Source of the DNA: a virus
Reading direction: 5' to 3' (one strand)
DNA length: 47,233 nucleotides
Virus record (IMG/VR): IMGVR_UViG_3300043411_002903
Coordinates: 1 to 47,233 of that record
Within the stretch, counting starts at the first letter, position 1. The number at the start of each line of letters is the position of its first letter. Shown one piece after another: positions 2,931 to 46,620 of this stretch. Made by a program: the position numbers and the translations under genes. The notes below the pieces were generated by a model. That model was given only the letters and a program-made list of their open reading frames with translations. It did not search any database and was not told the DNA's origin.

Positions 2931-4556
2931 ATGGGACTAAAAGAAACGCTAAAGATCATACAGGAAACATCAAATCTTTATTTGATAAACAAACCTTATA
3001 TCGTTGGTGGATTACCTAGAGATCTATATTTAGGTATCCCAAATGTAAAAACAACAGATATTGATATAACAACAAATTCACCTGAAGTTTTAAGATTAGG
3101 AATTCTTGTTGCTGATAAATTAAATGTCACATTTGAATTAGCAGATGATGGTCATTTAACTGTTTTTTCAGATAAATTCGATCTAGATTTTTCAAGTCAT
3201 TTTATATCAGATGATGTTAAAGAATATCTCAATGGAGAATTTGAAGGACTTGAAGAAGCGTTTAGTCGTGATTTTACAATCAATACCTTACATCAAGATT
3301 TAGTGACGGGAGAAATTTTGGACCCAACAAAACTCGGGTTTAAAGATATTGATAAAAAGTTAATAAAAACACCAGTCCCTGCAGAAATTACACTTACTGA
3401 TGATCCAAGAAGAATTTATAGAGCTATAAATTTAGCGGTAAGGTATCAATTCAATATTGACGATGAAATAAAAAGCTTTGTTATTGAAAACCCACATTTA
3501 TTTAAAGCTGACAAAATTAAAGATAAATATGTTGCCGTAAAAATTAATAAATCTTTAGATATAAACCCAAATTTAACAATTCAATTGTTAAAAGAATTTA
3601 ATTTATTTAACAATGTCCCATTATCTGGAAAGTTTAAAGATATCTTAATTAAAGAAAAATTATTGGTTGATTATTTAGATAATAAAAACCTAAAAACTGC
3701 CCAAATTAGATTGGCGAAAAATTGGAATGAATATATAGAACAAGGACCAGAATATTTAGAACTTAAAACATGGTGGCAAAATAATGCCAAAAATTTACCA
3801 GGAAATTATAATCCATCTTATTTAAGTTGGGAAAAATGGTATATGAAACATTATAGGGAGCAGTGGAATTTAAAACATAAAAGCCCAAATGAAACTTTAC
3901 TTTTTTTACAGGATGAATTAAACGGTTCAGGTATAATCAATCAGCAGGATCCTTTTGGTCTTTTAAACATGGAACATGTTAAAAAAGATTTTGAGCTGGG
4001 AATTGAAAATGTTATTATAAAACCTGGTGTTAATGTTGAAAACGTTTCAAGCGATGTTAAATATTTTATAAAAATATTAGGTGAGGAGGCTTTAAAACTC
4101 AAGTTGGAAACTCCTGTGATTACTAGTGGATGGAGATCAGTTGAAGAGCAAGCAAAAATTATGGCCACAAATTGGTTTAATAATGGCGGACAGAGAAATG
4201 GAAAACGTTATTTAATTGGCTTGTATGGAAAAGATTATGGTGGCAAAATTGCTGCTATATTTGAAAAATATGGCAATGGAGAAGAAGGTCAACGATTAGC
4301 TATTCAAGTTATAAAAAATCAACCAGTAGGAAGCAGCCATATTATGAATCCAGGAACAGCAATAGATTTAAGAATGACATCTGGAATTGATAAGATATTG
4401 AAATCGATTGTAAGTCAAAAAATATTTGACTTAAAGATAAAAGATGAAACAAATTATGCAGGACCTCATTACCATGTTAATGTCAAAGGTATTAAAAACA
4501 GGAAAAATTCGATAATGCAAAGAAAAGAAGCTGTGCTAAAGATAATTAACTACTAA
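2931..4556 (+). CDS. fusion: CCA/poly(A) polymerase-type nucleotidyltransferase + M15 zinc peptidase
   Basis: The protein has 541 residues and two recognisable enzymes. Residues about 20-180 carry the class II tRNA nucleotidyltransferase/poly(A) polymerase head: VGGLPRDLYLG (25-35), the metal-binding pair in TTDIDITT (D43, D45), a third acidic strand at FDLDF, SRDFTINTL (112-120) and DPRRIYRAINLAVRY (158-172). Residues about 345-520 match the M15 (VanY/D-Ala-D-Ala carboxypeptidase or L-Ala-D-Glu endopeptidase) fold: TSGWRSVEEQ (398-407), SSHIMNPGTAIDLR (468-481; zinc ligands H470 and D479) and PHYHV (512-516; H513 the likely third ligand). The first domain would add nucleotides to RNA 3' ends; the second would cut peptidoglycan stem peptides. 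The 180-340 segment is helical and may include a reduced RNA-binding neck. The frame is continuous with no sign of a join. A peptidoglycan-cutting domain in a virion-gene cluster suggests a particle-associated or lysis role; the RNA enzyme half is unexplained there. Confidence 0.8.
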   Translation: MGLKETLKIIQETSNLYLINKPYIVGGLPRDLYLGIPNVKTTDIDITTNSPEVLRLGILVADKLNVTFELADDGHLTVFSDKFDLDFSSHFISDDVKEYLNGEFEGLEEAFSRDFTINTLHQDLVTGEILDPTKLGFKDIDKKLIKTPVPAEITLTDDPRRIYRAINLAVRYQFNIDDEIKSFVIENPHLFKADKIKDKYVAVKINKSLDINPNLTIQLLKEFNLFNNVPLSGKFKDILIKEKLLVDYLDNKNLKTAQIRLAKNWNEYIEQGPEYLELKTWWQNNAKNLPGNYNPSYLSWEKWYMKHYREQWNLKHKSPNETLLFLQDELNGSGIINQQDPFGLLNMEHVKKDFELGIENVIIKPGVNVENVSSDVKYFIKILGEEALKLKLETPVITSGWRSVEEQAKIMATNWFNNGGQRNGKRYLIGLYGKDYGGKIAAIFEKYGNGEEGQRLAIQVIKNQPVGSSHIMNPGTAIDLRMTSGIDKILKSIVSQKIFDLKIKDETNYAGPHYHVNVKGIKNRKNSIMQRKEAVLKIINY

Positions 4557-4572
4557 TTATTATGGAAAAATT

Positions 4573-4836
4573 ATGAATTATTTAAAAATATCCAACAAAT
4601 CTACAGAAGATGACGATGACACAATAAGTTATCGGGAAGAAGATGAAAATAATGAAGTGGAATTACTGGAGGAAGGTGATTCTACTAACATTCCTCTAGA
4701 AGGTAGTGCTTTATATCCAAGAATATATGTTGGGGATTCAGCCACACCTTTGTCAGGTCAGTTTAACCAGTCAGAGTATGTAGATGACAATATTACTAGA
4801 ACGTGGACAGGTATCTTAACAAGTTATTATGGATAA
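4573..4836 (+). CDS. hypothetical acidic protein, 87 aa
   Basis: I do not recognise it. The N-terminal half is strongly acidic (runs of Asp and Glu between residues 10 and 37); the C-terminal half is richer in Gly, Thr and Tyr and ends TGILTSYYG. It lies 16 bases after the nucleotidyltransferase-peptidase fusion and overlaps the AAGGAG that serves the next gene, so it belongs to the same operon. Confidence 0.55.
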   Translation: MNYLKISNKSTEDDDDTISYREEDENNEVELLEEGDSTNIPLEGSALYPRIYVGDSATPLSGQFNQSEYVDDNITRTWTGILTSYYG

Positions 4837-4849
4837 GGAGAATATTAGA

Positions 4850-5890
4850 ATGACCGGCATTCTTATTACAGAATATAGTGAGCAAACTAAAAATGCACAG
4901 GTTCAAGCAGATTTCATTAAAGATCATGAACATGATTATGAGTTGTTTGATAATCCTGAGTCCTTAATAATTACATTTTCAGAAGAATCTGAATCTAATT
5001 TGTCCGAAGAAGCACATACGGATGACTCTTCCAATATGGAGTTAGATGAATTTTCAGAAGTTTCTTTTCATGAATATGAGGATGAATTAGAACCAATCGA
5101 TTCCGAAAACAAAGCAGAATTTGACGATGATGAATTGTTAGATTCTGGAGATCAAAGTGCCATGTCATTTAAATTACCTGGTGTTGTTGATTACGTAGAA
5201 GACGATTTGGAAGACGAAGAGGTAGATAAGGTTGATGATGGTAGCACAACAGATTGGGTAAATGATCGTGATGTTCGTCATTTCATGCCATATATCCTTG
5301 AAAAGGTTAATTCGATACCATCTCATGATGGTAAATCCACATTAGGATGCGAAAGAGCAATTCTTTATTTGGCAAATTTGAACAAAGAAATTTCAGAAGC
5401 GTTACGTTCTGATCCTAAAGCGTACTCAGGAATCAGTGACTCTGGAAGTCCACTTGATATTGAATCTTTAGAGAGAATTAGAATTAAAATATTGAAAGAT
5501 ATAACAACTCTAAAGGAGCATATTAAGACTCTTAACAAAAAGCATAAAAAGCCAACTAAAAAGAAATCAAATGATGATAGTATGACTTTAATAAAAGATG
5601 GTGATGTGCCCGCAGATTCAAGCAAAGTGGCTTCATTACCAAAAATTCAATTAGTAATGACTCCTTTTGAAAGAGCCATAACTGGTATGATTATTAATGC
5701 AACAGTTTCCGCAGGAAAATCTCTTGAAGATGTGTATGAGCAACTTAAAAAACAATATGATATAAGTGATAGAGAAGAGCTATCTATTTTTCAGTTACTA
5801 ATGGATATGGGTCAACCAATATATAAAGATAGAGGAACTCTAGGAACTGATGGTGAATCGGTTGATTTTATGAAAAATTATTTCGCATAA
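4850..5890 (+). CDS. hypothetical protein, 346 aa, acidic N-terminus
   Basis: I do not recognise this family. The ATG at 4850 is preferred over the in-frame ATG at 4829 because AAGGAG (4835-4840) sits nine bases before it. The first ~150 residues are extremely acidic. A helical stretch with a basic patch follows (about 210-235, TLNKKHKKPTKKKSND), then a compact C-terminal domain of about 90 residues containing DVYEQLKKQYDIS and MDMGQPIYKDRG. The charge layout resembles scaffold-like or histone-like phage proteins, but no function can be assigned. Confidence 0.65.
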   Translation: MTGILITEYSEQTKNAQVQADFIKDHEHDYELFDNPESLIITFSEESESNLSEEAHTDDSSNMELDEFSEVSFHEYEDELEPIDSENKAEFDDDELLDSGDQSAMSFKLPGVVDYVEDDLEDEEVDKVDDGSTTDWVNDRDVRHFMPYILEKVNSIPSHDGKSTLGCERAILYLANLNKEISEALRSDPKAYSGISDSGSPLDIESLERIRIKILKDITTLKEHIKTLNKKHKKPTKKKSNDDSMTLIKDGDVPADSSKVASLPKIQLVMTPFERAITGMIINATVSAGKSLEDVYEQLKKQYDISDREELSIFQLLMDMGQPIYKDRGTLGTDGESVDFMKNYFA

Positions 5891-5903: not shown

Positions 5904-6533
5904 ATGAAGATAAATAGACTCGGAGATAACGAAGATTATAAAACAACTGCTTTTTGGCTTTATGAATTTGGATACGATTTAGCTAAAAATGCTAAAGAAA
6001 TCGATTATCTTCGAGATTACCTTAATACACTTCAGGTCAATAAGAGTTTTAATACAATTGATGAAAAGATAGCAGATTTACGTAATCGTGTAGGTTTAGA
6101 TTTAGCTATAAAAATATCAAATGAAATTAACAAAGATAATATATCTTCAGCATCAAAAGAATGTGAATGTAAAAATAATACTAATGAAAAGTGTTTGTGT
6201 AAAGTAAAACAAGCATCAATGCATTCTGAGAAGGATGTTTCAACTATGAAAAATATTTTGGAATATATTCAAGATATGATCAAAAGTGAACCGCACTTAA
6301 ATGCTGCTGTAGTTATTTCTAGATGTGAAAATGAAAATGGTTTAGGTTTTGATTATTTATCAAAAAAAATAGACCAAGGAAAATTAATAAAATATATAGA
6401 TAGCTTATTAGATAAAAATAAACTATCTGAACATCAAAACGTTAGATATACTCCAGCGGTTGTTGATAATGATTATAGCGTAGAAGATATTTCAGCAGAA
6501 TATTATAATCATGCGGAGCCTTCACATTATTAA
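5904..6533 (+). CDS. hypothetical protein with CxC-x7-CxC cluster, 209 aa
   Basis: I do not recognise it. The protein is mostly helical. A central Cys cluster (C87, C89, C97, C99) could bind one metal ion, which is an inference from spacing alone. AAAGGA precedes the ATG. It sits directly before the terminase large subunit gene with a gap of eight bases, so it is co-expressed with packaging genes. Confidence 0.65.
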   Translation: MKINRLGDNEDYKTTAFWLYEFGYDLAKNAKEIDYLRDYLNTLQVNKSFNTIDEKIADLRNRVGLDLAIKISNEINKDNISSASKECECKNNTNEKCLCKVKQASMHSEKDVSTMKNILEYIQDMIKSEPHLNAAVVISRCENENGLGFDYLSKKIDQGKLIKYIDSLLDKNKLSEHQNVRYTPAVVDNDYSVEDISAEYYNHAEPSHY

Positions 6534-6541
6534 GGTTTTTT

Positions 6542-9403
6542 ATGACCAAATCAGCAAACCCAAAAGATGAAGTAAAAAATTTATTTAATCAAGTTCGTAA
6601 TAGTTTTTTGGATTATGATCCGGCGCACTTTATTCAAAATAACCTAACACTAGATGGGGATAGTTTCAGCATTCTAGGAAATGGCTGGAAGTTTATGGCT
6701 GATGTGTATAGATACATTGCACTTCAGGCATCTAGAAAAAATGGCAAACCTGTTGTTATCAAGAAGGGAAGACAGGTTGGTGCAACAATGATGGCTGGTG
6801 CATTAGATTTATATTTCACAAACAGTGGATTATTTGCGAAACCTCCAATTAAAGTGGCGCACTTCTTTCCATCTTTAGGTCTTAGAAATAGATTTTCACA
6901 AGAAAAATTAGAAAATTTAATTAGAGGTGCTAAAAATGATTTTATTAATGTTAATAAATTAACAGATGGCAACGTAGCTGATAATTTATCAACTAAGCAA
7001 TTCAAAACAGGAACTTTATGGATAGAAAGTATTGGGACTGATGCTGATCGTGTAAGAGGTATGACTATTGATGTTGCCTTTTTCGACGAATGCTTTGTTG
7101 GCAAACAAAATGTAGAAGTTGAATCAGGTAAAATGAGTCTGTCAAAAATTTATAAAATGAAATCTAAAAATAAAGATTTACCAAAAGTAATGTCTTTTAA
7201 TGAAAAAAATGAAAATTTTGAATATAAAAAGATATTAAATGTTTGGAAAAAAGAAAAAAAGGAGCTGCTTGAGATAAAGCTTGGTCAAAATAAAATAAAA
7301 TGTACGCAAAATCATAGGTTTTTGACAAGCGAAGGATGGAAGGCTGCTAAAGATTTGCACATTGGTGACTTAATTAAAAGCAAACATGATTATGGAAAGA
7401 GCATTAAAGCTTTAAATGAAGATCAACTTCAAATTATATTGGGATCTTTTCTTGGTGATGGAAATATAAGAAGAGAAGGGCAGCATAGATACAGATTAAG
7501 AATGACTCATGGCTTGGACCAAAGAGAATATTGTGAATGGAAGGCATCCATGTTAGATGCAAAAGTTTATGATAAAAAACCAAGTGGTTATTCGAATAAA
7601 GAATCTGTTTTTATGTCATCAACATATTTTGGTTTAAAAAAGGAATTCCCTAAAGTTAAAACTGTCTGCCCGCAATGGGTTTTGGATGAATTAGATCTTA
7701 GGGGTGTAGCAATATGGATTATGGATGATGGCTCATCCAAATTTAAAAATAATAAATTTCAAGGATTAAATATATCTACAGATTCTTTTGACGAAGATAG
7801 TCAGAAAAGGTTTGTTGATTATTTTAAAAAATATGATATTAAGTGTGAATATAGATTCTCAAATAGAAGTGGTGATAAATTTAAAAAATCAAGTTATCCG
7901 TCATTACACTTTAACCAAGAAAATGGCTCTAAACTTTTGGATTTGATTAAGCCATATGTACACAATAATATTGGTTATAAAATTCCTAATTTTTCAAAAA
8001 ATGAATGTAATTACAACTGGAATAAATTATTTAAAAAATATACATATAATGTTGTGGATAAGATTTCCAGCGTAAAAAAGAAAGAATATGTTTATGATAT
8101 AGAGGTAGAAGATAATCATAATTTTATAGTATGTTCTTCAGGACCAAGGTTGGGTGGTCCAATAGCTCACAACTGCCAGGATATGGTTGGGTTAGCAATA
8201 AACAATGCAACAAAAACATTAACCGCGTCTAAATATGGCCAATTAGGTTCTGGTGTACAGGTATATTTTGGAACCCCTAAAGAAAAAGGAACTTGGTTTG
8301 AGACAACATGGGAAATGTCTGATCAAAGATATTATCATTTGGGATGTAAAAATTGCAAAAACACATTTCCATTTTACCAACCTAATCATCCTGGTTGGAA
8401 GGATATTTGGATATCAGGATATGATATTAAATGTCCGTTGTGTGGTACTATTCAACATAAGGTTGATGCCATAGAACATGGTAAATGGGTCCCATCCAAA
8501 AACACAGACGACTGTAAGTATATAGGATTCCACATTAATCAGTTTTATATACCAAATTTGACACGAGAAGTTATCAATGATTTAATGCCAGAAAATAATC
8601 CAAATCAATCAGAAAGGGCTTGGAACAACGAAGTCGTTGGTGAATTTTATGCTGGCGTAGGAATGCCTTTGACAAGATCTCATATTGAGATATATTGTAA
8701 AGACGAAAATAGAGCATTTTCTAGAAAAATAGAATCAAGGGATAGAAAGACTTATCTTGGGGCTGACTGGGGAGATAAAGCTGAGCAAGATAGTAGAGGC
8801 CAATCATTTTCCTGTGCTGTAATTTTATCTGATGCAGGAAATGGAACTTTATTAATTGAATTTGCACATATTTTAAAAGAAAGAAGTTTTAGTTATAAAA
8901 AAGCAACTATACATGAATTGTACAAAAGATTTGGCGTACGACAGGGGGTTGCTGACTTTTTCTTTGGACAAGATGTTGTTAGAGACTTACAATCTATTTA
9001 TGGAGAAAGATTTTTAGGCTCTCAAGGTAGTGGAGCATTATTAAATGCTATAAAATATCGAGAAGATGAATTAATGATTACTTACAATAAGGATTTGTTG
9101 ATCGAAGAGCTTTTTGATAAAATGAAAAAAGGGAAGATACGATTTCCTTGGAAAAGTTATGAAAATATAGAATGGTTAATTAATCATTGCACTTCTATGG
9201 GAACTGCTCTCAGAGAAAAAAGTGGGCAACAGGTAAAGACTTATGTTAAAGGGACAACACCTAATGATGGTTTAATGGCACTAATGTATGCTTATATGGC
9301 TTGGAAATTTGATACAACAAATAAATTCACAATAAAGCCAGGAAAACCAAACGAATCTGGTATACTAAAATCTACATTAGCTTTTGCACCAAGGTTAAAA
9401 TAA
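6542..9403 (+). CDS. terminase large subunit (TerL), intein-containing
   Basis: The precursor has 953 residues; the spliced product would have 592. This is the DNA-packaging motor ATPase-nuclease that docks on the portal. The ATPase domain shows a Walker A-like KKGRQVGAT (74-82) and Walker B TIDVAFFDE (175-183). An intein occupies residues 184-544. The extein resumes as CQDMVGLAIN and contains two CxxC pairs (C602/C605 and C631/C634) suggesting a zinc-binding insert, as in GpA-like terminases. The nuclease (RNase H-like) domain shows GADWG (D742), VADFFFG (D805) and NDGLMALMYA (D909). AAGG lies just upstream of the ATG, and the portal gene follows at 12 bases. Reading frames of intein and extein are continuous and both halves are intact. 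Confidence 0.95.
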   Translation: MTKSANPKDEVKNLFNQVRNSFLDYDPAHFIQNNLTLDGDSFSILGNGWKFMADVYRYIALQASRKNGKPVVIKKGRQVGATMMAGALDLYFTNSGLFAKPPIKVAHFFPSLGLRNRFSQEKLENLIRGAKNDFINVNKLTDGNVADNLSTKQFKTGTLWIESIGTDADRVRGMTIDVAFFDECFVGKQNVEVESGKMSLSKIYKMKSKNKDLPKVMSFNEKNENFEYKKILNVWKKEKKELLEIKLGQNKIKCTQNHRFLTSEGWKAAKDLHIGDLIKSKHDYGKSIKALNEDQLQIILGSFLGDGNIRREGQHRYRLRMTHGLDQREYCEWKASMLDAKVYDKKPSGYSNKESVFMSSTYFGLKKEFPKVKTVCPQWVLDELDLRGVAIWIMDDGSSKFKNNKFQGLNISTDSFDEDSQKRFVDYFKKYDIKCEYRFSNRSGDKFKKSSYPSLHFNQENGSKLLDLIKPYVHNNIGYKIPNFSKNECNYNWNKLFKKYTYNVVDKISSVKKKEYVYDIEVEDNHNFIVCSSGPRLGGPIAHNCQDMVGLAINNATKTLTASKYGQLGSGVQVYFGTPKEKGTWFETTWEMSDQRYYHLGCKNCKNTFPFYQPNHPGWKDIWISGYDIKCPLCGTIQHKVDAIEHGKWVPSKNTDDCKYIGFHINQFYIPNLTREVINDLMPENNPNQSERAWNNEVVGEFYAGVGMPLTRSHIEIYCKDENRAFSRKIESRDRKTYLGADWGDKAEQDSRGQSFSCAVILSDAGNGTLLIEFAHILKERSFSYKKATIHELYKRFGVRQGVADFFFGQDVVRDLQSIYGERFLGSQGSGALLNAIKYREDELMITYNKDLLIEELFDKMKKGKIRFPWKSYENIEWLINHCTSMGTALREKSGQQVKTYVKGTTPNDGLMALMYAYMAWKFDTTNKFTIKPGKPNESGILKSTLAFAPRLK
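7091..8173 (+). mobile_element. TerL intein with LAGLIDADG homing endonuclease
   Basis: A 361-residue in-frame insertion (precursor residues 184-544) that separates Walker B DE from QDM. It begins with Cys184, has the splicing block B motif TQNHRF (T255, H258), a block F-like YVYDIEVEDNHNF and ends AHN followed by Cys, the canonical His-Asn/Cys junction. The endonuclease part carries two LAGLIDADG-type helices, IILGSFLGDGNI (298-309) and VAIWIMDDGS (389-398). All catalytic splicing residues are present, so it looks active. Removal restores a continuous terminase with Cys at the +1 position. Confidence 0.93.
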
Positions 9404-9415
9404 TGAGGTATTTAA

Positions 9416-12319
9416 ATGAGTAGAAGAATTTCCAGGGGTAATTCACCTCAACCGCCAATTTCAAGAAACGGATTTCAAAAGTTATCAGAATTTCGTCGTG
9501 CCGAAATTCATAATATTGAAAATCAGAAACAGGATAAAATTGAAAACGGAAATGCGACAGCTTCAGTGGTCCACAGCTCACATTATAGAGATGTAATGGT
9601 TAAGAAAGCTTCAAGTTCCCAAACTGTTTTGCCAACAACCAAAGGCATTTCTGATATGTTAGGGCCGGAAGTTTATTCTCCATTATTTATTTTAGCTAAT
9701 TTAAACCTACCAAGAGATAGAGTCGCAATGAATGCTTGGAACCGAGTATTTTATGACACACATCCAGTGGTAAGAAATGCAATCAATCTTCATGCTAGTT
9801 ATCCAATTAGTAAAATAAACATTTCTCATCCAGATAAGAAGGTTCAGGAATTTTTTCTTGAAATGGCTGAAAAAATAGATTTATATTCAGTTGTTTATGG
9901 TGCTGCACTTGAATTTTGGAAACTAGGAGAATGTTTTCCTTATGCAGAATTAGATCGGGAAACAAATTCTTGGAAAAAAATAACAATATTAAATCCAGAT
10001 TATATACATGTTAAAAAATCAGCAATTGGAGATCATACAATTATTTCTTTACGTCCTGACGCAGGATTACAAAGATTGGTTAATTCTAATTCACAATCAG
10101 ACATTGCTTTGAAAAAAAGATTGCCCAAACATATAGTTGATGCTGTTAAAAAAGGTGAATCCATTCCATTAGATGGAATAAATATTTCTCATTTAAAATT
10201 ATTAAGTTCACCATATGATGTTAGAGGAACTTCTGTCATCGTTTCAGTCTATAAAGATCTAATGCACTATGACAAATTGCGTGAATGTTTTGATAAGGAT
10301 ACTGAGGTTTTAACCAGCAATGGTTTTAAAAAATATACAGATATTTTTAATTTAGATAATCAAAGCATTAAAAATGATGTGATGATAGCATCATATAATG
10401 ATATCAGTGATAAAATTGAATATTTAAAACCAACCAATTCAGTTTTGAAAGATTTCACAGGGGAAATGATTCATTTTAATGGTAAGAAAATTGATTGTAT
10501 GGTTACACCTAATCATAGAGTTTATTCTTCAAAAAAGACCAGTGAAGGTTGGCAGCCATATGAAATAAGTTTAGCAAAAGATATCGGAAATGGTTCCTTT
10601 TACAAATTCAAAACATCAGCAACATTTGATAATCTTAACGATATTGACGAAGTAATTGTTGGTGATAAAAAAGTTCCAGTTAAAACATATTTAAAATTTG
10701 CAGGCTATTTAGTTAGCGAAGGCTGTATATATCAAAAAATAAGAAATGATAAACGCAAAAATGGATACCAATACTTTGATAATAAAATTATCACTTCGCA
10801 ATTACCAACATCGTTGTGTTTTGAAGATATGAAAAATGTTTACACGGAAATTTCGGACATAATGGGTTATAAATTATCTGAAAGTTTTAGAGTTCAAGAT
10901 TCTGGATTTTCAAAATCATCACCAAAAGAAATTTGGTCTGCATCAATATTTGGGAAAGAATTGGTAGATCATTGTATAGAAAATTTTGGAATTGATGGCA
11001 AAACAGATTCTTTTAACAAGAGAATTCCTAGATGGGTTCTAAATTTAAAACCAGAGTTGCAAAGAATTATGTTATCTGCATTAGTATCCGGTGATGGATC
11101 TATTTTTAGAAAGAAAACAACAACATCGTTTAGGTACAATACTGTATCTAAACAATTGGCAGATGATGTTTTTGAAATGGTATATAAATGTGGATTCACT
11201 CCAACCTTAGGGACTTATAAGAGAGCTGGGAGAGATATTAACGAGTATGTTATTTCATGGTCATATAGTGGCATAGGAGTCGAGCCATTAATTTATAATA
11301 ATTTTAAATATAATGCAGCAAAAATAAATAAAGTAAATTACAATGATAAAGTTTGGTGTGTAGAAGTGCCTACTGGATTAATTGTAACAAGAAGAAATGG
11401 TAAAATAGTAATTCAAGGTCAGTGTAAGTTTGCTCAAGCTGATAATATGGTTAATCCATTAACCCTAGTTAAACTAGGTGGCTCTAACGATTATCGTCCA
11501 ACACAAAGTGATTTGGATGCGATGAAATCAGTCCTTGAAGAGGCTCAATATGATAAGGATTTTAAAATTGTAACACACGATGGTGTTACAATTGAGCGGG
11601 TAGGTCATAGTGGACAAATTCTTGATATTTCGCAAGACTTAGAATTTATAATGAACAATTTATATATCGGATTAATGGTTCCTAAATCAATCATAGAACA
11701 AGACTCAGTTACATATGCAAGCTCATCCATAGGATTAGAAGTTTTAAGACAGAGATACGATATATTTAGAAACATGATGAAAAAATGGCTTGAGCAAAAA
11801 ATATTTGCACCAATATCACAATTACAAGGGTTCTTTAATTATAAAGATGGCCAAAAAATATTACAAGTTCCTACCGTAGATTTTAATCATATGAATTTAT
11901 ATGATATGAGTGACTATATTCAAGGTGTGAGCAATTTCGTTGCTAACGAACAAGTTTCATTGCAGACATTATATAGAAGCCTTGGATTGTCATATGAAGA
12001 AGAAAAGAGAAGATTAAGAGAGGAGGCCATAGACAAAGTTAAAAAGACGAAAGAACTTGAGGCTCTAAATGTGATGAGATTAAGAGAACTTGAGAATCTA
12101 GACCCTAATGGTGTAATACCAGAGCCACCAGCAAGTGCGGATGGCATGGGCGGACTTGGACCTGATATGGATTCAAGCGGCTTGCCTGGATTAGAATTAC
12201 CAGGCATGCCATCCGGCGGACCAGGAGAGGGTTTGGAGGGAATGGGAGGCCCTGACATTAGTATGCCACCACCTTCACCTTCCCCTTCTGGCGGAGGAGA
12301 GCCTAAATCCCCTGTCTAA
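9416..12319 (+). CDS. portal protein, intein-containing
   Basis: The precursor has 967 residues; the spliced protein would have 588. The portal forms the ring at one capsid vertex through which DNA passes. Extein motifs typical of portals include MNAWNRVFYDTHPVVRNAI, LNPDYIHVKK, and after the intein CKFAQADNMVNPLTLVKLGG, followed by a long helical region. The C-terminal ~85 residues are Gly/Pro/Ser/Met-rich low-complexity sequence (from about DPNGVIPEPPAS to the end), probably a flexible tail. It follows TerL with a GAGG ribosome-binding site, the usual terminase-portal order. An intein occupies residues 291-669. Confidence 0.92.
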   Translation: MSRRISRGNSPQPPISRNGFQKLSEFRRAEIHNIENQKQDKIENGNATASVVHSSHYRDVMVKKASSSQTVLPTTKGISDMLGPEVYSPLFILANLNLPRDRVAMNAWNRVFYDTHPVVRNAINLHASYPISKINISHPDKKVQEFFLEMAEKIDLYSVVYGAALEFWKLGECFPYAELDRETNSWKKITILNPDYIHVKKSAIGDHTIISLRPDAGLQRLVNSNSQSDIALKKRLPKHIVDAVKKGESIPLDGINISHLKLLSSPYDVRGTSVIVSVYKDLMHYDKLRECFDKDTEVLTSNGFKKYTDIFNLDNQSIKNDVMIASYNDISDKIEYLKPTNSVLKDFTGEMIHFNGKKIDCMVTPNHRVYSSKKTSEGWQPYEISLAKDIGNGSFYKFKTSATFDNLNDIDEVIVGDKKVPVKTYLKFAGYLVSEGCIYQKIRNDKRKNGYQYFDNKIITSQLPTSLCFEDMKNVYTEISDIMGYKLSESFRVQDSGFSKSSPKEIWSASIFGKELVDHCIENFGIDGKTDSFNKRIPRWVLNLKPELQRIMLSALVSGDGSIFRKKTTTSFRYNTVSKQLADDVFEMVYKCGFTPTLGTYKRAGRDINEYVISWSYSGIGVEPLIYNNFKYNAAKINKVNYNDKVWCVEVPTGLIVTRRNGKIVIQGQCKFAQADNMVNPLTLVKLGGSNDYRPTQSDLDAMKSVLEEAQYDKDFKIVTHDGVTIERVGHSGQILDISQDLEFIMNNLYIGLMVPKSIIEQDSVTYASSSIGLEVLRQRYDIFRNMMKKWLEQKIFAPISQLQGFFNYKDGQKILQVPTVDFNHMNLYDMSDYIQGVSNFVANEQVSLQTLYRSLGLSYEEEKRRLREEAIDKVKKTKELEALNVMRLRELENLDPNGVIPEPPASADGMGGLGPDMDSSGLPGLELPGMPSGGPGEGLEGMGGPDISMPPPSPSPSGGGEPKSPV
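10286..11422 (+). mobile_element. portal intein with LAGLIDADG homing endonuclease
   Basis: A 379-residue in-frame insertion (precursor residues 291-669) within KLRE/CKFAQAD. It starts CFDKDTEVLTSNGFKKYTDI, a standard intein N-terminus, has block B VTPNHRVY (T364, H367), block F-like VWCVEVPTGLIV and the end RRNGKIVIQGQ followed by Cys. The last residue is Gln rather than Asn and the preceding one is Gly rather than His. Two LAGLIDADG-type motifs are seen: LKFAGYLVSEGCI (426-438) and MLSALVSGDGSI (552-563). It is clearly different in sequence from the TerL intein, so the two were acquired separately. Confidence 0.92.
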
Positions 12320-13078: not shown

Positions 13079-13369
13079 ATGGATAAAAAAGCAGTAAGAG
13101 GTTTTCCTCATGATCCACATTATGTAGCTAATGAAATTAGGAATATAATACATGTTATTATAGGAAGAATGTCTTTGGAATCACAACAAAAAGCTTATCC
13201 TAATTTGAAATCAAAGTTTAAAAATTTAAATGTTGCAGAAATATCTAGTAAAAAACAACCTGGTGGTTCAGCATTGGGCGTTAGTATTAGTTTGGTGAAA
13301 AATATTTTAAATGGTAGAGATCCTTATTTTATAAAAATGGTATTGGATGAATTATCAAGGGGATTGTAA
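13079..13369 (+). CDS. hypothetical protein, 96 aa
   Basis: I do not recognise it. It is basic and compact, starting MDKKAVRGFPHDPHYVANEI. GAGG precedes the ATG at good spacing, and its TAA shares a base with the next ATG (TAATG). There is no membrane segment. Confidence 0.6.
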   Translation: MDKKAVRGFPHDPHYVANEIRNIIHVIIGRMSLESQQKAYPNLKSKFKNLNVAEISSKKQPGGSALGVSISLVKNILNGRDPYFIKMVLDELSRGL

Positions 13370-15195
13370 TGTTCAAAGATATTTTAAAAAAACAAGCTTG
13401 GCCATGGGTGGGAGAATTTGAAAAAGAAATGGGCTCTATGGAATTACAAAACGACAACTTAAATAAGGATGTTAATTCTCAAAGTAACTATGATTCCCTG
13501 GTAACTGAAAAATCTGTGGTAGATGGTCAACAATCATCCGTAACTTATGAAGATGGAATGTTGAGCCCAATAGAAGATGTCTCTTATGCCAAAGATATTA
13601 AAAATCGTCCAGAGAAAAAAGCTTTTTTGGAAATATTATCCGATGGCAATTTTTTGGCCTCCTTTAGTTGTGGGTTGGCAAAAACATTTCAGGAAAAAAC
13701 ATCAGGACTGCAGGTTTATGATACTCTAGATGAAAATGCTGGTTTGCTGTTTGAATATACAAAGCCTGAAGATGTCATTTATCATATGGGAACTGTAAAA
13801 TTCCCAATAGATATTATCTTTGTTGATGATAATAATAAAATCAAAAAAATATACAAAAACATTCAGCCTGGAACTTTAGGTACATTTGGATGTTCCAAAA
13901 CAAAATATGTATTAGAGATCTGTGGTGGTTTATCAGATCGCTTGGAAGTTGTTACAGGAAATGATGTAAGTGTTAAGTTTAAAGAAAGCATCATTCAAGA
14001 TGAAATAAATAAGATATCCAAAAATTATGGCATACAAAAAGATATTATTGTTAAAAAATCTATGTTTGGAAAAAATCAAATCCAAAATTGGAATGGTTTT
14101 CCAATTTTAAACATGGGTGATGATATAAATAAATTTGCATCAGATAGGAGCTTGATATCTGACATGGTAGTGAAATTCAAGCCCAAGCCATTAAAGTTAG
14201 CGATATTTAATTTCGATAATCTTATAGAAAAAGATCCTTATGTTAGTGTTTATTCTTGTAAAAAAATTGGAGCAGAAGATGAATTGATTCACCTTACAAC
14301 GACGGGAGCTTTGGTCAGAGCTAATTTGAATGCTTTTAAAGTGGTTCATATTTCGGATATCAATGAAGTAGAAAATGATTGTGAAGCCATTTTGCCAATC
14401 AAGAGTTTGTCAAGTTTAATGATGTCATCTTTTGATGAGTTTTCAAACATGTATTATAAAATGAAATCTAAGTCAAAAGATTATAAATTAATTATAGCAA
14501 CAAGTTTTCCTAACATTAGAGTGATTGAAAATTTATTATATAATAAAATAAAAACACATTTAGGTGAGGATATAAGTTTTGATGTAATGAAAATATCTGA
14601 TAATGCTGATTTTTACAATATAATTGATGACGCTAAAAATAAATTTAAGGTTGGAACAATAGAATTGTATGGTGATTCAACTATCTTAAAAAAAGCAGGA
14701 ATTCCAGTTTCTGATGACGTTAAACAAAAAGCAAGAAGAGTTTATAAATTATTAGATTCAGCGTCTGAAATTATAGAAACATCTTTAGAAAACATGAAAA
14801 AAAATGTATCGGAATATGAAAAAATTAAAGATGATGTTGATGCTATAAAAAGAACCAAGGGGTTGTATAATCAATCAATAAAGAGAAACACAATAATCAT
14901 TAGAGATTTTCTAATAAAAATTAGGGATGCAATTAAAATTTTAAATGAAATTAAAGATGTATCTACAACTATTGAAATAATAAATGGTATAACCAGTACA
15001 ACAAAGATAATATCTGACTCAATTGAAGGTATATTTAATTTAATTGATGAATTAGAGAATTCTGATTTTTTTATTAATTTGTCAGAGAAGGTCAAGGAAT
15101 TTGAAAAAAATGTAGAAGATGTACATTATTCAATAAAGCGCGGAATTAATTATGTTAATACAGATATTTTAGGATTAATTATTTTATCTGATTAA
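13369..15195 (+). CDS. hypothetical protein, 608 aa, C-terminal coiled coil
   Basis: I do not recognise a family. Residues about 70-450 appear globular and mixed alpha/beta (for example PIDIIFVDDNNKIKKIYKNI and LTTTGALVRANLNAFKVVHI). The last ~150 residues are long helices with heptad-like Ile/Leu spacing and many Lys/Asp/Glu. No catalytic motif was found. It lies immediately before the protease-scaffold gene and overlaps the previous stop, so a structural or internal head role is plausible but unproven. Confidence 0.65.
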   Translation: MFKDILKKQAWPWVGEFEKEMGSMELQNDNLNKDVNSQSNYDSLVTEKSVVDGQQSSVTYEDGMLSPIEDVSYAKDIKNRPEKKAFLEILSDGNFLASFSCGLAKTFQEKTSGLQVYDTLDENAGLLFEYTKPEDVIYHMGTVKFPIDIIFVDDNNKIKKIYKNIQPGTLGTFGCSKTKYVLEICGGLSDRLEVVTGNDVSVKFKESIIQDEINKISKNYGIQKDIIVKKSMFGKNQIQNWNGFPILNMGDDINKFASDRSLISDMVVKFKPKPLKLAIFNFDNLIEKDPYVSVYSCKKIGAEDELIHLTTTGALVRANLNAFKVVHISDINEVENDCEAILPIKSLSSLMMSSFDEFSNMYYKMKSKSKDYKLIIATSFPNIRVIENLLYNKIKTHLGEDISFDVMKISDNADFYNIIDDAKNKFKVGTIELYGDSTILKKAGIPVSDDVKQKARRVYKLLDSASEIIETSLENMKKNVSEYEKIKDDVDAIKRTKGLYNQSIKRNTIIIRDFLIKIRDAIKILNEIKDVSTTIEIINGITSTTKIISDSIEGIFNLIDELENSDFFINLSEKVKEFEKNVEDVHYSIKRGINYVNTDILGLIILSD

Positions 15196-25138: not shown

Positions 25139-25202
25139 ACCATCTCCAATATTTTTGGTTTTTATATAACCCAAAGTATCATATATATAATTGGTGGGGG
25201 TA

Positions 25203-26426
25203 ATGAAGATATGTAATAAATGTTTGATTGGGTTGGATGAAAGTTGTTTTAGTGTTAATAAATCAACATTAGATAAATTATCAAACAAATGTCGAAAATG
25301 TTTGAGCGAACAAAGAAGATCCGCAAGAAAAGAAAAGAAAAAATTAGAACCTCCAAAAAAAGAAACTGATTATTTTAATAAATCATCAAAGTTATGTAAG
25401 GAATGTGATCAGAATTTAGAAATTGATAAATTCAATATTTGTACTCTAACTTTAGATGGGAGAGAAGGTGTTTGTAAGAAATGTCGTGCATTAAAAAGAA
25501 AGAAGAACGCTTTAAATAGTCAAAATTATCCAGAGAAAACAGAAAAAAAATGTTCTAAATGTAAGAAAATACTGCCAACGTTTTACTTTTCAAAAGATGT
25601 GTCCCGAGATGATGGATATAGTACAATTTGTAAATTTTGTAAAAATTTTAGTTATAAAATTTATATGAATAGTTCAAAAGCAAAAGAAATCTCAACTCTT
25701 AAATCTAAGAGATGGAAGTTTAAAAACCCGGATAGTTCCAAAATTTATTATCAAAATAATAAGGAAAAATTTAAACAAAAATATTTAAATTATCGCAACT
25801 CTCCAATGGGACGTTATATTTCAATTAAAATTCAGGCAAATCAACGTAATATTGATTTTAATTTAACAAAAGATTTTGTAAATCAATTTTGGGATGCCAA
25901 TTGTCATTATTGTGAAAGTAAATTAGATATACCAAGATTTGATCGAATTAATTCTAATCTTGGTTATATGGAGAATAATGTAGTTCCTTGTTGTCAAACC
26001 TGCAATTATATGAAAAATCACTTAACAAAAGTGGATTTTTATAATCATTTGTTAAAAATAATTAAATTTCAAAAAGATGGAGCTATAGTGGATGGTTTTC
26101 CACAAATTATTTATTCAGGAAACCCAAAAAATGATCATTACTTATCTCCGCTTGGTCGTTTTAATTGGTATCAGAGTCAAGCAAAAATTCGAAAAATTCC
26201 TTTTAAAATAGAATATGGTAGTTTTATAAAATATTGGCAAAAATCTTGTTCATATTGTGGATCAGTAATAAATACAATTGGCTTGGATAGAATTAATAAT
26301 AACTTAGGTTATATTGAAGGAAATATAAATTCTTGCTGTAAAATTTGTAATTCAATGAAGGCTGAGATGTCTTTTGATCATTTTATTAGTAAGTGTGAAA
26401 ACATTTTAAAAAACAATAAGGATTGA
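25203..26426 (+). CDS. free-standing HNH homing endonuclease, tandem HNH domains
   Basis: The protein has 407 residues from the ATG at 25203; GGTGGGGG lies just upstream. The N-terminal third has three successive CxxC...CxxC zinc-ribbon-like units (C4/C7-C30/C33, C65/C68-C91/C94, C117/C120-C143/C146). The C-terminal half has two copies of an HNH-type module: CHYC, then FDRINSNLGYMENN, then CCQTCNYMK (about 234-270), and CSYC, then LDRINNNLGYIEGN, then CCKICNSMK (about 349-385). Each is preceded by a similar lead-in (SPMGRYISIKIQANQRNIDF and SPLGRFNWYQSQAKIRKIPF). HNH enzymes nick or cut DNA with a single metal ion; in this subfamily Asp-Arg stands where the first His usually is. It sits directly after the capsid terminator and has its own AT-rich codon style, so it is probably a mobile insertion. 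Confidence 0.88.
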   Translation: MKICNKCLIGLDESCFSVNKSTLDKLSNKCRKCLSEQRRSARKEKKKLEPPKKETDYFNKSSKLCKECDQNLEIDKFNICTLTLDGREGVCKKCRALKRKKNALNSQNYPEKTEKKCSKCKKILPTFYFSKDVSRDDGYSTICKFCKNFSYKIYMNSSKAKEISTLKSKRWKFKNPDSSKIYYQNNKEKFKQKYLNYRNSPMGRYISIKIQANQRNIDFNLTKDFVNQFWDANCHYCESKLDIPRFDRINSNLGYMENNVVPCCQTCNYMKNHLTKVDFYNHLLKIIKFQKDGAIVDGFPQIIYSGNPKNDHYLSPLGRFNWYQSQAKIRKIPFKIEYGSFIKYWQKSCSYCGSVINTIGLDRINNNLGYIEGNINSCCKICNSMKAEMSFDHFISKCENILKNNKD

Positions 26427-32818: not shown

Positions 32819-33217
32819 ATGCCAAAGTCAAAATATCCTCAAGAATTAGATACATCATTAGAAATACCTCCTGCAAGAGATAATATTCTTGAGGTTGGTT
32901 CTGATATTATCAATAGCTTGAGATCAGCAATCTTTAACATAGAAAGAACTTTGGGCATAAATCCACAGGGAGCTATTGGAAATACACTAGCAGAAAGGCT
33001 TAATCATATAATTGATGGTAACGGCAATTTACGAAGTGATGCTTTGAATTTATCAAACGTTTTAAGTGGCCCAATCATAGATAATGATGTCTCTAATGTT
33101 GCCGCCATACAAGAATCTAAGTTAAAGCTAAATTTCCCCACAATATTATTGCAAGACGAAATAACAGTACTTAATTCACAGCTTGAAGATATTCAAAATA
33201 CGTTAAATGAAGTATCT
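32819..33217 (+). repeat. duplicated 5' coding segment, copy 1
   Basis: By hand alignment these 399 bases differ from 37120-37518 at about 41 positions and contain no indel. The last 90 bases (33128-33217) are identical in both. Similarity drops sharply right after 33217. Confidence 0.9.
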
Positions 33218-36200
33218 AATGAAATAGCTATTCATTTAAATATACATGCTTTAAATAGACATAGCTCAAGAGCAATTAGTGTCACTTCATCTATAGTAGA
33301 CCCTGGTGATGTTGCGGTCAAAAGTTTGGAGGAAGGAACTGTGCAATCAGTTCTTGAGGATTTATTTGATAACCATATAAATTATACCGGAATTGATATA
33401 TCTGCATCAAATAACTCCCACGATGCCAGTCAAATATATTTTAACGATGAAAATATATCAGATGTTGCTTCAGCTGCTAATGTACAAGATGCAATAGATA
33501 GTTTGGTTACCATTGCTATAAATTCACAGACTCAGCATCAAAAAAATCAACATAGTAACGGTATGCTTAAAATTGGAAATATAGATACATCTATAAATTC
33601 AGGTGTTGGCAATATACTAAGTGATGATTTTGAAATATCATTTAATAAAAATGATGGCTTATCTACATGTTACTCTACAATAATCATTACGACACCATTT
33701 CCCTTGGGAGATTTTACATTAGAAAAATCTGATATAATTACTATATCAGATCCCAGTGATAATAGTGAAAGTTATGTTGGAGATTATGAAATAGAAAGTT
33801 TCACAGTTACAGGAAGTAATTTAGCAGAAGTTATTGTTTTTGGATATTTTAGTTCTGATTCCACCTCTACAACAACTGGTAGAATAAGCAAAAGTATTAA
33901 AGCAGAAACTAATAAGGCCGGATTACTAATTGCCGTTAGAGAGGAGGCCCAACAAACATCTGCAAAAACAATTCAAATATGTAATCCTAATTCTGTTAAA
34001 ATTATTTCTAATAAAATTAAACCTTATGAAATAACATCAATTAAAAGATTTATAGGTGTCACTATTGATGATGGAGAAGTAGATGTTATCGATTTATATA
34101 ACAGTAGTTATACTAGACAGACGATTGACTCTGTTGTAAGTAGAATAAATGAACAAGTGGCAGAAGAAGCTCTTAATTTCTTTGCTTATAGGGTTGATGT
34201 TGATAATAGATCTGAAGTTGCAATAGCCTATAACTTGCCTGACGATTCTGATTCTCAACATACTATTAAAATCACAAGACAGGTTGATAATGGAATTGAT
34301 GTTTCAGGATATGTAGACTTTGAAGATATTGAGATTTATTCAGATTTTGGCTCAAATTATTATCTTAATGGTGTTGGATATGAAGGTTTGAGTCAAAAGC
34401 TTGATTCAACAGGATTAAGTTTTAACGCATCAGGTGTAGTTATAGGAACAGGATCCTCTAATATCGATTTCTTAAGCAGCGGAATTAAAAAAGGTGATGT
34501 GATTATAATTACAGGAGCCAGTTCTATAGCTGATAACAAAACATATGTAATAGATGCTGTAAGTTCAACACAGTTAAGTATCAGCTCTGATCAATTGCCA
34601 TCAGGTTTTTCTGGAACAAGTCAGACTACTACTCGATTTAGAATCTTTCACAATATTATATCTTTTGAAGATATAACCTTTAATGAGGTGGGTGATAGTT
34701 ATGGATCTATGTTGGCAGAAATATTTTTGAATAAAGATAGAATTCCTTTCTACAATAAAAGACTGGAATATACGTCGTCAATTTTAGCATCAAGTCCTTT
34801 GTTTTCAATAGTTGATTTTGAAGGTGATATATCAGATCAAGAGTTTGAGCTTACAGTTAGTGGTGGAACTGATCTTGTATACTTCAGCATTGATTCTGGA
34901 TCAATTGTTCAAGTTAGAGGAAATGACAGTTATTTTTGGGTAACATCAGGAACAAAGAACGTTAAATTAAAATTTATGGTTAAAAGTGTTAGTGATCTAA
35001 ATACTCAACTTACGAGTCTCGGCAGCGATTTAACAACAATTATATATGGTTTTTCAAAAATAAACAACGACACCAACTTAGTGCTATCAATAGTTACTTT
35101 TGATAATTTTAATGGTAGAGTATCTGGTGGAGAAAACTCATCAAGAGTAAGAAGCAAATTACCTTTAGGCAATATCTCTTTAAAAGATTTGAGCACCAAA
35201 GTTAAAGCTGAATTGGTAGAGGAACCAATAAATGATTTAAGAACAAGTGGAGTAATTTCAGGTCTTGAAATTACAGGTGCTAGTTCAACCTCTAGTTTGT
35301 ATAGTTTTGATATTACATCAGGCGCATGCTATGTTAGAGGAAAGAAATTTTTTGTTGAAGCTCATGAAAACTTCATTTCAAACATTAATATTAGTTCAAC
35401 TGATAAAATATTTATAGCTGTTGACGCCGATGGAATGGTGCAAGTATCAGCCTCAACACCTAGTTGTCAGTGTCCATTCGAATCATCTGAATATTGTTTG
35501 CTGGCAACAATAGAGTATGATAACGTTAATTATTATAATCATGATTTGAGATTATTCATAAATGATATAGATTTAAAAATTTTAAATTCAATTACTGTTA
35601 GTCTTGAACCAAGCATGGGACATTTTTCTGATTTAGGTAAAGCAATTGGTTATGCCAAAAGATTTTCTCAAATATTTACTAAGGCAGGAATTCCAACGAT
35701 TCATTTAAAATCAGGAGTTTTTGAGGTTACAACTACATTTGATAATTCATCCATTTCTTATGCAGATTGGGCGGCTCAATCAACGTCAACAAAAAATGTT
35801 GAATTATATGATGGGTTAGCTCAGGCTAACCTGGTTGTTGATTTTCCAGTAAATATAATTGGAGAGGGAGATTCTTCAATTCTTAAATTAAGAAATCAAT
35901 ATATATTTTCCAATATTACTTATACTATGAGGGGGGCAATTATTGTTCCAGGTAATGGATTATCAGATTTTACAGTTCCTATTGATAAAATAACTGCAGG
36001 TTTTTTTGAATTCAAAAATTTTAGAATGAATAATTGTAGATTACAATTGCCAGATTTTGAAATTAATGATGGAACAGATCCTTATTTTAATGGTGTTACA
36101 ATAAAGTCTGTTGTTTTTGATATGACAGGATTCACAGCAAATCCCGTTGATACAGCATTAGGGCCAAGATGTGTTGATCTTAGTGAGGTAAACAATACAT

Positions 36201-37120
36201 CAATCAAGAAGGGAAATATAACAATTGATTGTTGTAAATTTTTAGTTGAACCAGATGGTAATTCTAGAGCAGTAATTAATCTACCAGCAGAAACCAGAAC
36301 AAAGAATATGGTTATATCTAATAATTATTTGATTGGTTCTGATGACACATCAACGATTAGATTAATGGACAAAGATATTTGGTTTTTTTCAACGGCAGAT
36401 AGTGGGGCGAATATAACAATAACAGGAAATATTTCAGCATCTAATTTTAACACAGTTAGTGATGCATCAAAACCACACATGGTGATTGGTGCCACTGGAT
36501 GGGGTGATAGAATCAGTCGAACCCTTCGTGTTGGTGGTAATTTAACCGGAGAAGGTAGCGCCACATTTACCGATGCTATTGAGGGAAGTCTATTTAATTA
36601 TAATCAAACATTAACAAGAACGAAGTACATTTTTTTTGAAAACCTATCAGATACAGCATTAGGAGATAGTACTGCAAATACAACTTTTGATACATTATCT
36701 GTTAATGGTAGGGAGTGGCGAAGTATTAAATTTAATGATAACCTCACCGATGTGATGAGGGTTAGACTTGAAATATTGCCTGGAGAAACACTTGATGATA
36801 TCACTATTTTGTTTGGAACAGAAGACCCGGCTGATTCTATCTTTGGTGGCTTTAGTTTAAGAATAACTTCTGAAAATGCTTATGGTGATGAGACCGTAGA
36901 ACAGGTGTATACATCCATGGGCAGTGTTGTCGGTGGATTAGGTGCCTCTTTAGAGGCCGGAGCACAAGGTGTTACAAACCTTAGTTTTTCTGGTGCTGAA
37001 AACAAACATTATATTGCTAATATTAAAAGAAGTGCAACAACTGGTTACTCACAGCACATGCTATATGTTCAGTATACGACAACAATGACTACAGTTCAGG
37101 CGCTTGGAGGATTAACCTAA
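32819..37120 (+). CDS. giant fibre/adhesin-like virion protein 1, 1433 aa
   Basis: The N-terminal ~133 residues (starting MPKSKYPQELDTSLEIPP) are almost the same as in the next gene and include a helical segment with LQDEITVLNSQLEDIQNTLN, probably an oligomerising or virion-attaching domain. The rest is beta-rich, with repeated Ser/Thr/Asp-rich domains. From about residue 934 (HFSDLGKAIGYAKRFSQIF, then TIHLKSGVFEVTTTF) it resembles the start of a right-handed beta-helix, the fold of many tailspikes. The C-terminal ~240 residues are a further beta domain absent from the paralogue. No catalytic residues were identified. Likely a baseplate-attached fibre or spike contacting the host; its neighbours are neck and sheath genes. 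Confidence 0.65.
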   Translation: MPKSKYPQELDTSLEIPPARDNILEVGSDIINSLRSAIFNIERTLGINPQGAIGNTLAERLNHIIDGNGNLRSDALNLSNVLSGPIIDNDVSNVAAIQESKLKLNFPTILLQDEITVLNSQLEDIQNTLNEVSNEIAIHLNIHALNRHSSRAISVTSSIVDPGDVAVKSLEEGTVQSVLEDLFDNHINYTGIDISASNNSHDASQIYFNDENISDVASAANVQDAIDSLVTIAINSQTQHQKNQHSNGMLKIGNIDTSINSGVGNILSDDFEISFNKNDGLSTCYSTIIITTPFPLGDFTLEKSDIITISDPSDNSESYVGDYEIESFTVTGSNLAEVIVFGYFSSDSTSTTTGRISKSIKAETNKAGLLIAVREEAQQTSAKTIQICNPNSVKIISNKIKPYEITSIKRFIGVTIDDGEVDVIDLYNSSYTRQTIDSVVSRINEQVAEEALNFFAYRVDVDNRSEVAIAYNLPDDSDSQHTIKITRQVDNGIDVSGYVDFEDIEIYSDFGSNYYLNGVGYEGLSQKLDSTGLSFNASGVVIGTGSSNIDFLSSGIKKGDVIIITGASSIADNKTYVIDAVSSTQLSISSDQLPSGFSGTSQTTTRFRIFHNIISFEDITFNEVGDSYGSMLAEIFLNKDRIPFYNKRLEYTSSILASSPLFSIVDFEGDISDQEFELTVSGGTDLVYFSIDSGSIVQVRGNDSYFWVTSGTKNVKLKFMVKSVSDLNTQLTSLGSDLTTIIYGFSKINNDTNLVLSIVTFDNFNGRVSGGENSSRVRSKLPLGNISLKDLSTKVKAELVEEPINDLRTSGVISGLEITGASSTSSLYSFDITSGACYVRGKKFFVEAHENFISNINISSTDKIFIAVDADGMVQVSASTPSCQCPFESSEYCLLATIEYDNVNYYNHDLRLFINDIDLKILNSITVSLEPSMGHFSDLGKAIGYAKRFSQIFTKAGIPTIHLKSGVFEVTTTFDNSSISYADWAAQSTSTKNVELYDGLAQANLVVDFPVNIIGEGDSSILKLRNQYIFSNITYTMRGAIIVPGNGLSDFTVPIDKITAGFFEFKNFRMNNCRLQLPDFEINDGTDPYFNGVTIKSVVFDMTGFTANPVDTALGPRCVDLSEVNNTSIKKGNITIDCCKFLVEPDGNSRAVINLPAETRTKNMVISNNYLIGSDDTSTIRLMDKDIWFFSTADSGANITITGNISASNFNTVSDASKPHMVIGATGWGDRISRTLRVGGNLTGEGSATFTDAIEGSLFNYNQTLTRTKYIFFENLSDTALGDSTANTTFDTLSVNGREWRSIKFNDNLTDVMRVRLEILPGETLDDITILFGTEDPADSIFGGFSLRITSENAYGDETVEQVYTSMGSVVGGLGASLEAGAQGVTNLSFSGAENKHYIANIKRSATTGYSQHMLYVQYTTTMTTVQALGGLT

Positions 37121-37518
37121 TGCCAAAGTCAAAATACCCTCAAGAATTAGATACATCATTAGAAATACCTCCGGTTAGAGATAATATAACCGAGGTTGGT
37201 TCTGATATTATCAATAGTTTGAGATCAGCAATCTTTAACATTGAAAGAACTTTGGGTATAAATCCACAAGGAAGTTCAGGGAATACATTAGCAGAAAGGC
37301 TTAATCATGTAATTGATGGCAATGGTAATATTTTAGATGAAGCTTTAAATAGAGTTAATGTTTTAAGCGGCCCAATCATAGATAATGATGTCTCTAATGT
37401 TGCTGCTATACAAGAATCTAAGTTAAAACTAAATTTCCCCACAATATTATTGCAAGACGAAATAACAGTACTTAATTCACAGCTTGAAGATATTCAAAAT
37501 ACGTTAAATGAAGTATCT
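37120..37518 (+). repeat. duplicated 5' coding segment, copy 2
   Basis: Partner of 32819-33217, in direct orientation 4301 bases downstream with constant offset. The 90-base stretch 37429-37518 is identical to copy 1. Confidence 0.9.
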
Positions 37519-42335: not shown

Positions 42336-42352
42336 TTAATTTGGAACTTAAA

Positions 42353-46588: not shown

Positions 46589-46620
46589 AATGGCTCACTT
46601 AAGTGGGCCATTTTTATTTT
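46589..46620. terminator. bidirectional Rho-independent terminator
   Basis: TGGCTCACTT (46591-46600) pairs with AAGTGGGCCA (46601-46610), with one G-T pair, extended by AA/TT. T-rich sequence follows on the plus strand, and A-rich sequence before it gives a T-rich tail for the minus strand. It ends the sheath transcript and probably also the convergent minus-strand gene, whose stop lies at 46614. Confidence 0.85.

Follow-up and report, generated by a model that had tools for sequence, protein, structure and literature searches.

What can a phage do with a protein which joins a nucleotidyltransferase of the CCA-adding type to a peptidase of the kind that cuts the cell wall, and do the two halves have anything to do with each other? 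The question is raised by an open reading frame on the IMG/VR virus contig IMGVR_UViG_3300043411_002903, which was analysed over its whole length of 47,233 bases (positions 1 to 47,233, hereafter the window; coordinates are those of the window unless a relative is named, and the fused gene with its gene block is on the plus strand). The frame, 2931–4556, runs from ATG to TAA without interruption and codes for 541 amino acids, with all the motifs quoted in a preliminary description of this DNA present in the translation. Literature searches gave no report of a nucleotidyltransferase-M15 fusion, nor of a head/packaging gene block in which a CCA-type nucleotidyltransferase (NTase) is a fixed member.

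The window encodes a tail sheath and a major head protein which shares 51% identity with its counterpart in Bacillus phage G. Judged from its genes the window is a fragment of a myophage, and a jumbo phage is the probable source because close relatives are found on contigs of up to 395 kb.

Two domains in one frame

The N-terminal half, residues 1–254 (2931–3692), is a separate gene in most relatives. It matches the Pfam family PolyA_pol (PF01743) with 48.4 bits (E 1.5e-12; the curated cut-off is 23) and the PHROG family of tRNA nucleotidyltransferases at 5e-19. A profile made from ten sequences of the NTase family matched the head and neck of solved CCA enzymes in PDB, at best with 5e-21, and the neck helices are present, residues 107–233 aligning in this profile to PDB entry 9ns2. 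The AF2 model of the fused protein, made with four sequences, was poor (pLDDT 61); its N-terminal half nonetheless matched CCA enzymes in PDB.

We compared 23 distinct NTases, down to about 37% identity to that of the window. Invariant in all of them are G26, G27 and R30 at the start of motif A (GGLPRD, residues 26–31, 3006–3023), D43 and D45 of the metal-binding DxD (3057–3065), D86 (3186–3188), motif B, S-R-D, with R113 and D114 (residues 112–114, 3264–3272), N118, and D158, P159 and R161 of motif D (DDPRR, residues 157–161, 3399–3413); the first position of motif D, 157, holds D in 21 sequences and N in the other 2. D86 is proposed as the third catalytic carboxylate from its role in the family. 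The functions of D43, D45, D86 and the other single residues are assumed here from what is generally known of class II nucleotidyltransferases, and motif D (D-D-P-x-R) is the element of nucleotide selection in CCA enzymes. On these alignments residues 1–254 are the head and neck of a nucleotidyltransferase of class II (CCA-adding/poly(A) polymerase), with an intact active site, and the invariance of the residues points to a working enzyme. A toxin-like NTase of the MenT type, which the preliminary description had put forward, was rejected since PolyA_pol was the sole Pfam NTase family matched; what is matched is the head of the CCA-adding/poly(A) polymerases, including their D-D-P-x-R.

Class II CCA enzymes hold the tRNA with their body and tail domains. 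These are absent here: stand-alone homologues stop at about 250–265 amino acids, and the residues of the window beyond 254 align to the M15 gene of relatives.

The C-terminal half begins with a helical region rich in W and Y (residues 259–330, 3705–3920; alignments A4 and A6 and helices of the model), the start of the former M15 gene. The M15/LAS-type metallopeptidase domain follows at residues ~361–521 (4011–4493), recognized by a sub-threshold VanY match, by alignment, by the AF2 model and by Foldseek. Seven residues, R402, Q407, H470, D479, E506, H513 and H515, are invariant in 11 aligned relatives with 28–46% identity to the window. Among them are the substrate-side Arg402 in TSGWRS (4122–4139), the predicted zinc ligands H470 and D479 (4338–4367) and the predicted catalytic E506 with H513-x-H515 (4446–4475), roles which we take to be those of M15 peptidases in general. 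The AF2 model of this half has a mean pLDDT of 82; Foldseek matched it among viral models to a Peptidase M15B (E 3e-3) and a hedgehog-named protein (E 0.025), both with probability 1.00, and among PDB chains to none at E ≤ 0.001. An hhalign comparison of the M15 alignment with one canonical VanY was not significant, and tblastn of the C-terminal half against named phages gave no match.

The signature of M15/LAS enzymes is S-x-H-x-x-G-x-A-x-D, with a distance of 7 from H to D. This distance is found in two outgroup copies (L025 and L027) and in two genome paralogues (G002), and it is 9 in the window, in the fused clade and in several others. The half resembles VanY, the M15B phage peptidases and the hedgehog fold in its TSGxR, H...D and E...HxH elements and in the match of viral M15B models to its fold; it differs from them by a Pfam VanY score of 13–17 bits, below the cut-off of 25, by longer H...D and E...HxH loops in the fused clade, the former extended by two residues, and by being attached to an NTase. 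We consider it very probable that it is a divergent M15/LAS metallopeptidase with all catalytic residues kept. A catalytically dead LAS fold, used for binding only, would agree with the sub-threshold score and with the spacings changed to H-x8-D and E-x6-H in the fused clade; against it, the predicted zinc and catalytic residues are all invariant in the 11 sequences and the two genome paralogues retain the canonical H-x6-D; we regard a dead fold as quite improbable.

Both domain calls of the preliminary description and their fusion are thus confirmed, by the PolyA_pol score, the M15 catalytic residues and homologous fusions. The identical continuous fusion is found in three further phage contigs (L005, L006/L007 and L011) with 52–56% identity over the whole protein. 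The fusion is therefore not a sequencing error, and the missed frameshift between two genes, against which the preliminary description had warned, is ruled out. The NTase and M15 are separate, overlapping genes in close relatives, as would suit an artefact of sequencing or assembly uniting two genes, but the fused frame is common to four lineages from separate metagenome records, and we rejected an artefact as hardly credible. Near the junction in the window there is no internal ATG or GTG start with a Shine-Dalgarno sequence. A scan with the M15 alignment of the fused clade gave no fused copies beyond those known, and a search of viral_contigs with the whole protein or with the C-terminal half alone found no relatives.

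A nucleotidyltransferase gene in the packaging block

Relatives were found with the terminase as bait and then with NTase alignments, and more than twenty contigs proved to carry the gene block; the sequences of the clade are all metagenomic, and contigs repeating each other were counted once. The order g0-g1-g2-g3-NTase-(M15)-g6-g7-g8-TerL-portal is strict as far as each contig extends, and in all recovered loci the NTase, of which there are 23 distinct ones, occupies one and the same slot, 5' of terminase and portal. In the window g3 (1448–2914) precedes the fused gene, as it lies directly 5' of the NTase in all loci where the contig is long enough. Behind the fused gene follow the small g6 (4573–4836), g7 (4829–5890) and g8 (5904–6533), all conserved in synteny, and then the large terminase subunit (6542–9403) and the portal protein (9416–12319), identified by domain and PHROG matches and by their relatives. 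The NTase-M15 gene therefore lies among packaging genes, and the location in a morphogenesis operon claimed in the preliminary description holds good. A small NTase gene of the CCA-adding type is a fixed part of the packaging block in this uncultured group of giant phages.

Some other features of the window may be recorded here. The terminase and the portal are both interrupted by inteins with LAGLIDADG similarity (about residues 184–544 and 292–668, with bounds judged from intein-free relatives); one or both are missing in several relatives, and the terminase intein is retained in others. A conserved late protein of 608 amino acids with a DUF192 domain (Pfam E 3.6e-20) is encoded within the structural block at 13369–15195. 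Two adjacent very large frames, 32819–37120 and 37120–40707, have near-identical N-termini (MPKSKYPQELDTSLEIPP...) and no PHROG match; they are tandem copies of what is probably a tail or fibre protein. Homing-type endonuclease genes, of the Endonuclease VII-like, GIY-YIG/NUMOD3 and HNH types, are dispersed in the structural region (25191–26426, 42341–43177 and, on the minus strand, 46614–47147).

The NTases of the operon form one clade (100/99), apart from the full-length CCA enzymes which phage G, Tunturi 5 and bacteria possess, in a tree which has several long branches, among them the stem of the operon clade, and in which deeper placement is unsure. A scan of bacterial genomes gave distant NTases only, which fell outside the operon clade where they were placed on the tree. 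Phage G and Tunturi 5, the named relatives by capsid protein, carry no operon NTase.

Gain, fusion and loss of the peptidase

The architectures differ between the relatives. Four lineages have the fused NTase-M15 (the window, L005, L006=L007 and L011). Five loci (L020, L024, L025, L027 and L030) have NTase and M15 as two genes in different frames, the start of the M15 gene coinciding with the end of the NTase or lying slightly ahead of it; the stop and the overlapping or abutting start fall at the position of the fusion junction, residues 252–262 (3684–3716), as read in the sequence of four of the five and from the frame coordinates in all. One locus (L002) has the NTase and no M15, and in another (L008, 5405–6475) the fusion partner of the NTase is g6 and not the peptidase. 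The linker of this NTase-g6 protein (KTLANISSRKERMFKLS) matches the tail at the C-terminus of the fused peptidases (in L005, NKLANINNRKERLIKLS), by which we recognize it as a deletion scar, a remnant of the M15 tail. The remaining, more distant loci have the NTase alone.

In the terminase tree the loci with M15 and the two that lost it group together (100/98) amid lineages that have the NTase only; within this group the fused and the lost loci form a clade (100/99), in which the two losses, L002 and L008, pair (100/99). From this nesting it follows that the NTase was the core gene first and that M15 was then gained, fused and lost. The trees do not decide between one origin of the fusion and several, or whether the four fused forms make up a clade exclusively of their own (AU p 0.284 for the terminase, 0.106 for the NTase), as is expected if the losses came from a fused ancestor. 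The peptidase gene entered directly behind the NTase, came to overlap it, became fused to it in one subclade and disappeared again in a sister pair within that subclade. M15 homologues are also found at other genome sites, one at 99369–99935 of G013 (the contig of L009, in the lineage of L008) and two in G002, and the module therefore moves; their neighbours form no clear lysis or tail cassette. G013 also encodes a separate canonical VanY protein of 261 amino acids at 130253.

The preliminary description saw the fusion as possibly one combined function, opening the wall and then modifying RNA. This does not agree with the relatives, most of which have separate genes or no peptidase, or with the two sister lineages of fused forms that dropped the peptidase and retained the NTase. 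The other proposal, a lysis enzyme which has captured an RNA-binding head, reverses the order: the core gene of long standing is the NTase, to which the peptidase was added later, and an endolysin with a captured head was rejected on this event order. The fusion is probably a recent and unstable by-product of gene adjacency, and the two activities are probably independent; since evolution repeatedly separates the NTase and M15, there is no need for one half to act through the other.

Possible roles of the nucleotidyltransferase

The explanation that we prefer, with moderate confidence, is that of a two-domain late protein in a clade of uncultured jumbo myophages, made of a minimal CCA-type NTase and an independent, divergent M15 peptidase. 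The NTase, reduced to head and neck and fixed as a core gene of the packaging/head block, would bind two metal ions by D43, D45 and D86, select CTP and ATP by its D-D-P-x-R motif and add nucleotides to the 3' end of RNA, most plausibly restoring the CCA ends of tRNAs in late infection. The M15/LAS half would as a zinc peptidase cut the peptides of peptidoglycan at entry or exit, each domain working on its own. The reading frame, the homology of both halves, the invariance of the catalytic residues, the synteny and the succession of events on the tree are directly observed; the activities, the RNA substrate, the late timing and any place in the virion are what we infer.

Several observations count against this explanation. 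The NTase lacks the body and tail which bind tRNA. The large relatives with tRNA genes have 3 to 43 each, and in sampled stretches of related contigs CCA is already encoded in 51 of the 56 phage tRNA genes, so these tRNAs can be made without any CCA addition; a role in mending tRNA ends that were trimmed or damaged, of host or phage, is still plausible. At least three related contigs (G001, G002 and G003) carry a second NTase elsewhere, and the operon NTase may therefore do something else. The peptidase half, for its part, is weakened by the Pfam score, the hhalign result and the lack of a PDB fold match. CCA-adding enzymes have already been reported in jumbo phages, one review placing them in RNA repair against host nucleases (PMC7824862) and another in translation support (PMC7162821).

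In the jumbo relatives we also noted tRNAs with a CTA anticodon, called as tRNA-Pyl and possibly amber suppressors (L087 15577–15652, minus strand, and L089 5460–5537), and a predicted tmRNA at 13455–13817 of L082 in a 335-kb relative (G003), whose second NTase lies 5.5 kb away.

One alternative makes the whole protein, or just the NTase half, a component of the virion which is injected with the DNA and modifies host tRNA or other RNA immediately after entry, while M15 aids the passage through the wall. It is in keeping with an NTase fixed in a co-directional packaging/head block and not among tRNA genes, and the second NTase of related contigs could take care of tRNA upkeep. The peptidase is dispensable, however, no virion proteomics of this clade came to light, and the capsid-protein relatives phage G and Tunturi 5 do without the operon NTase, and we regard such an injected protein as rather unlikely. 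Another alternative gives up the CCA role and has the NTase repurposed in the packaging module; its target might for instance be a phage RNA, or a protein, in head assembly or DNA packaging. The missing body and tail, the linkage to TerL and portal in all loci that reach them, the long stem branch of the operon clade and phage tRNAs that mostly encode CCA would all fit, but the CCA-typical D-D-P-x-R is kept, with D158, P159 and R161 in 23 of 23; repurposing is for us a doubtful reading.

Set beside known systems, the operon NTase is like the class II tRNA nucleotidyltransferases (PF01743; solved structures of cca1/cca2 and of the T. maritima and B. stearothermophilus enzymes) in head and neck, DxD, motifs B and D and catalytic carboxylates. 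It differs from them in its length and missing domains, in its place in a packaging operon, in forming its own clade and in being fused to a peptidase in four lineages. With the phage tRNA nucleotidyltransferases (PHROG 2244 and 24229; Bacillus phage G and Tunturi 5) it shares the superfamily and the head domain, whereas the two checked here, in phage G and Tunturi 5, are full-length enzymes encoded at a distance from the head and packaging genes.

The more interesting object is the NTase, which lacks the parts that bind tRNA and yet never leaves the packaging block. It is conceivable, if somewhat unlikely, that it is a minimal template-independent RNA nucleotidyltransferase which represents a new class, integrated into the morphogenesis of a jumbo-phage clade, either a packaged and injected modifier of 3' ends or an assembly factor acting on phage RNA, with a wall peptidase bolted on in some lineages. 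Should the NTase prove to be part of the virion or of its assembly, RNA 3'-end chemistry would be linked to phage morphogenesis or entry. The series of gain, fusion and loss is in any case a clear warning not to take one domain fusion in a phage as evidence that the domains share a function.
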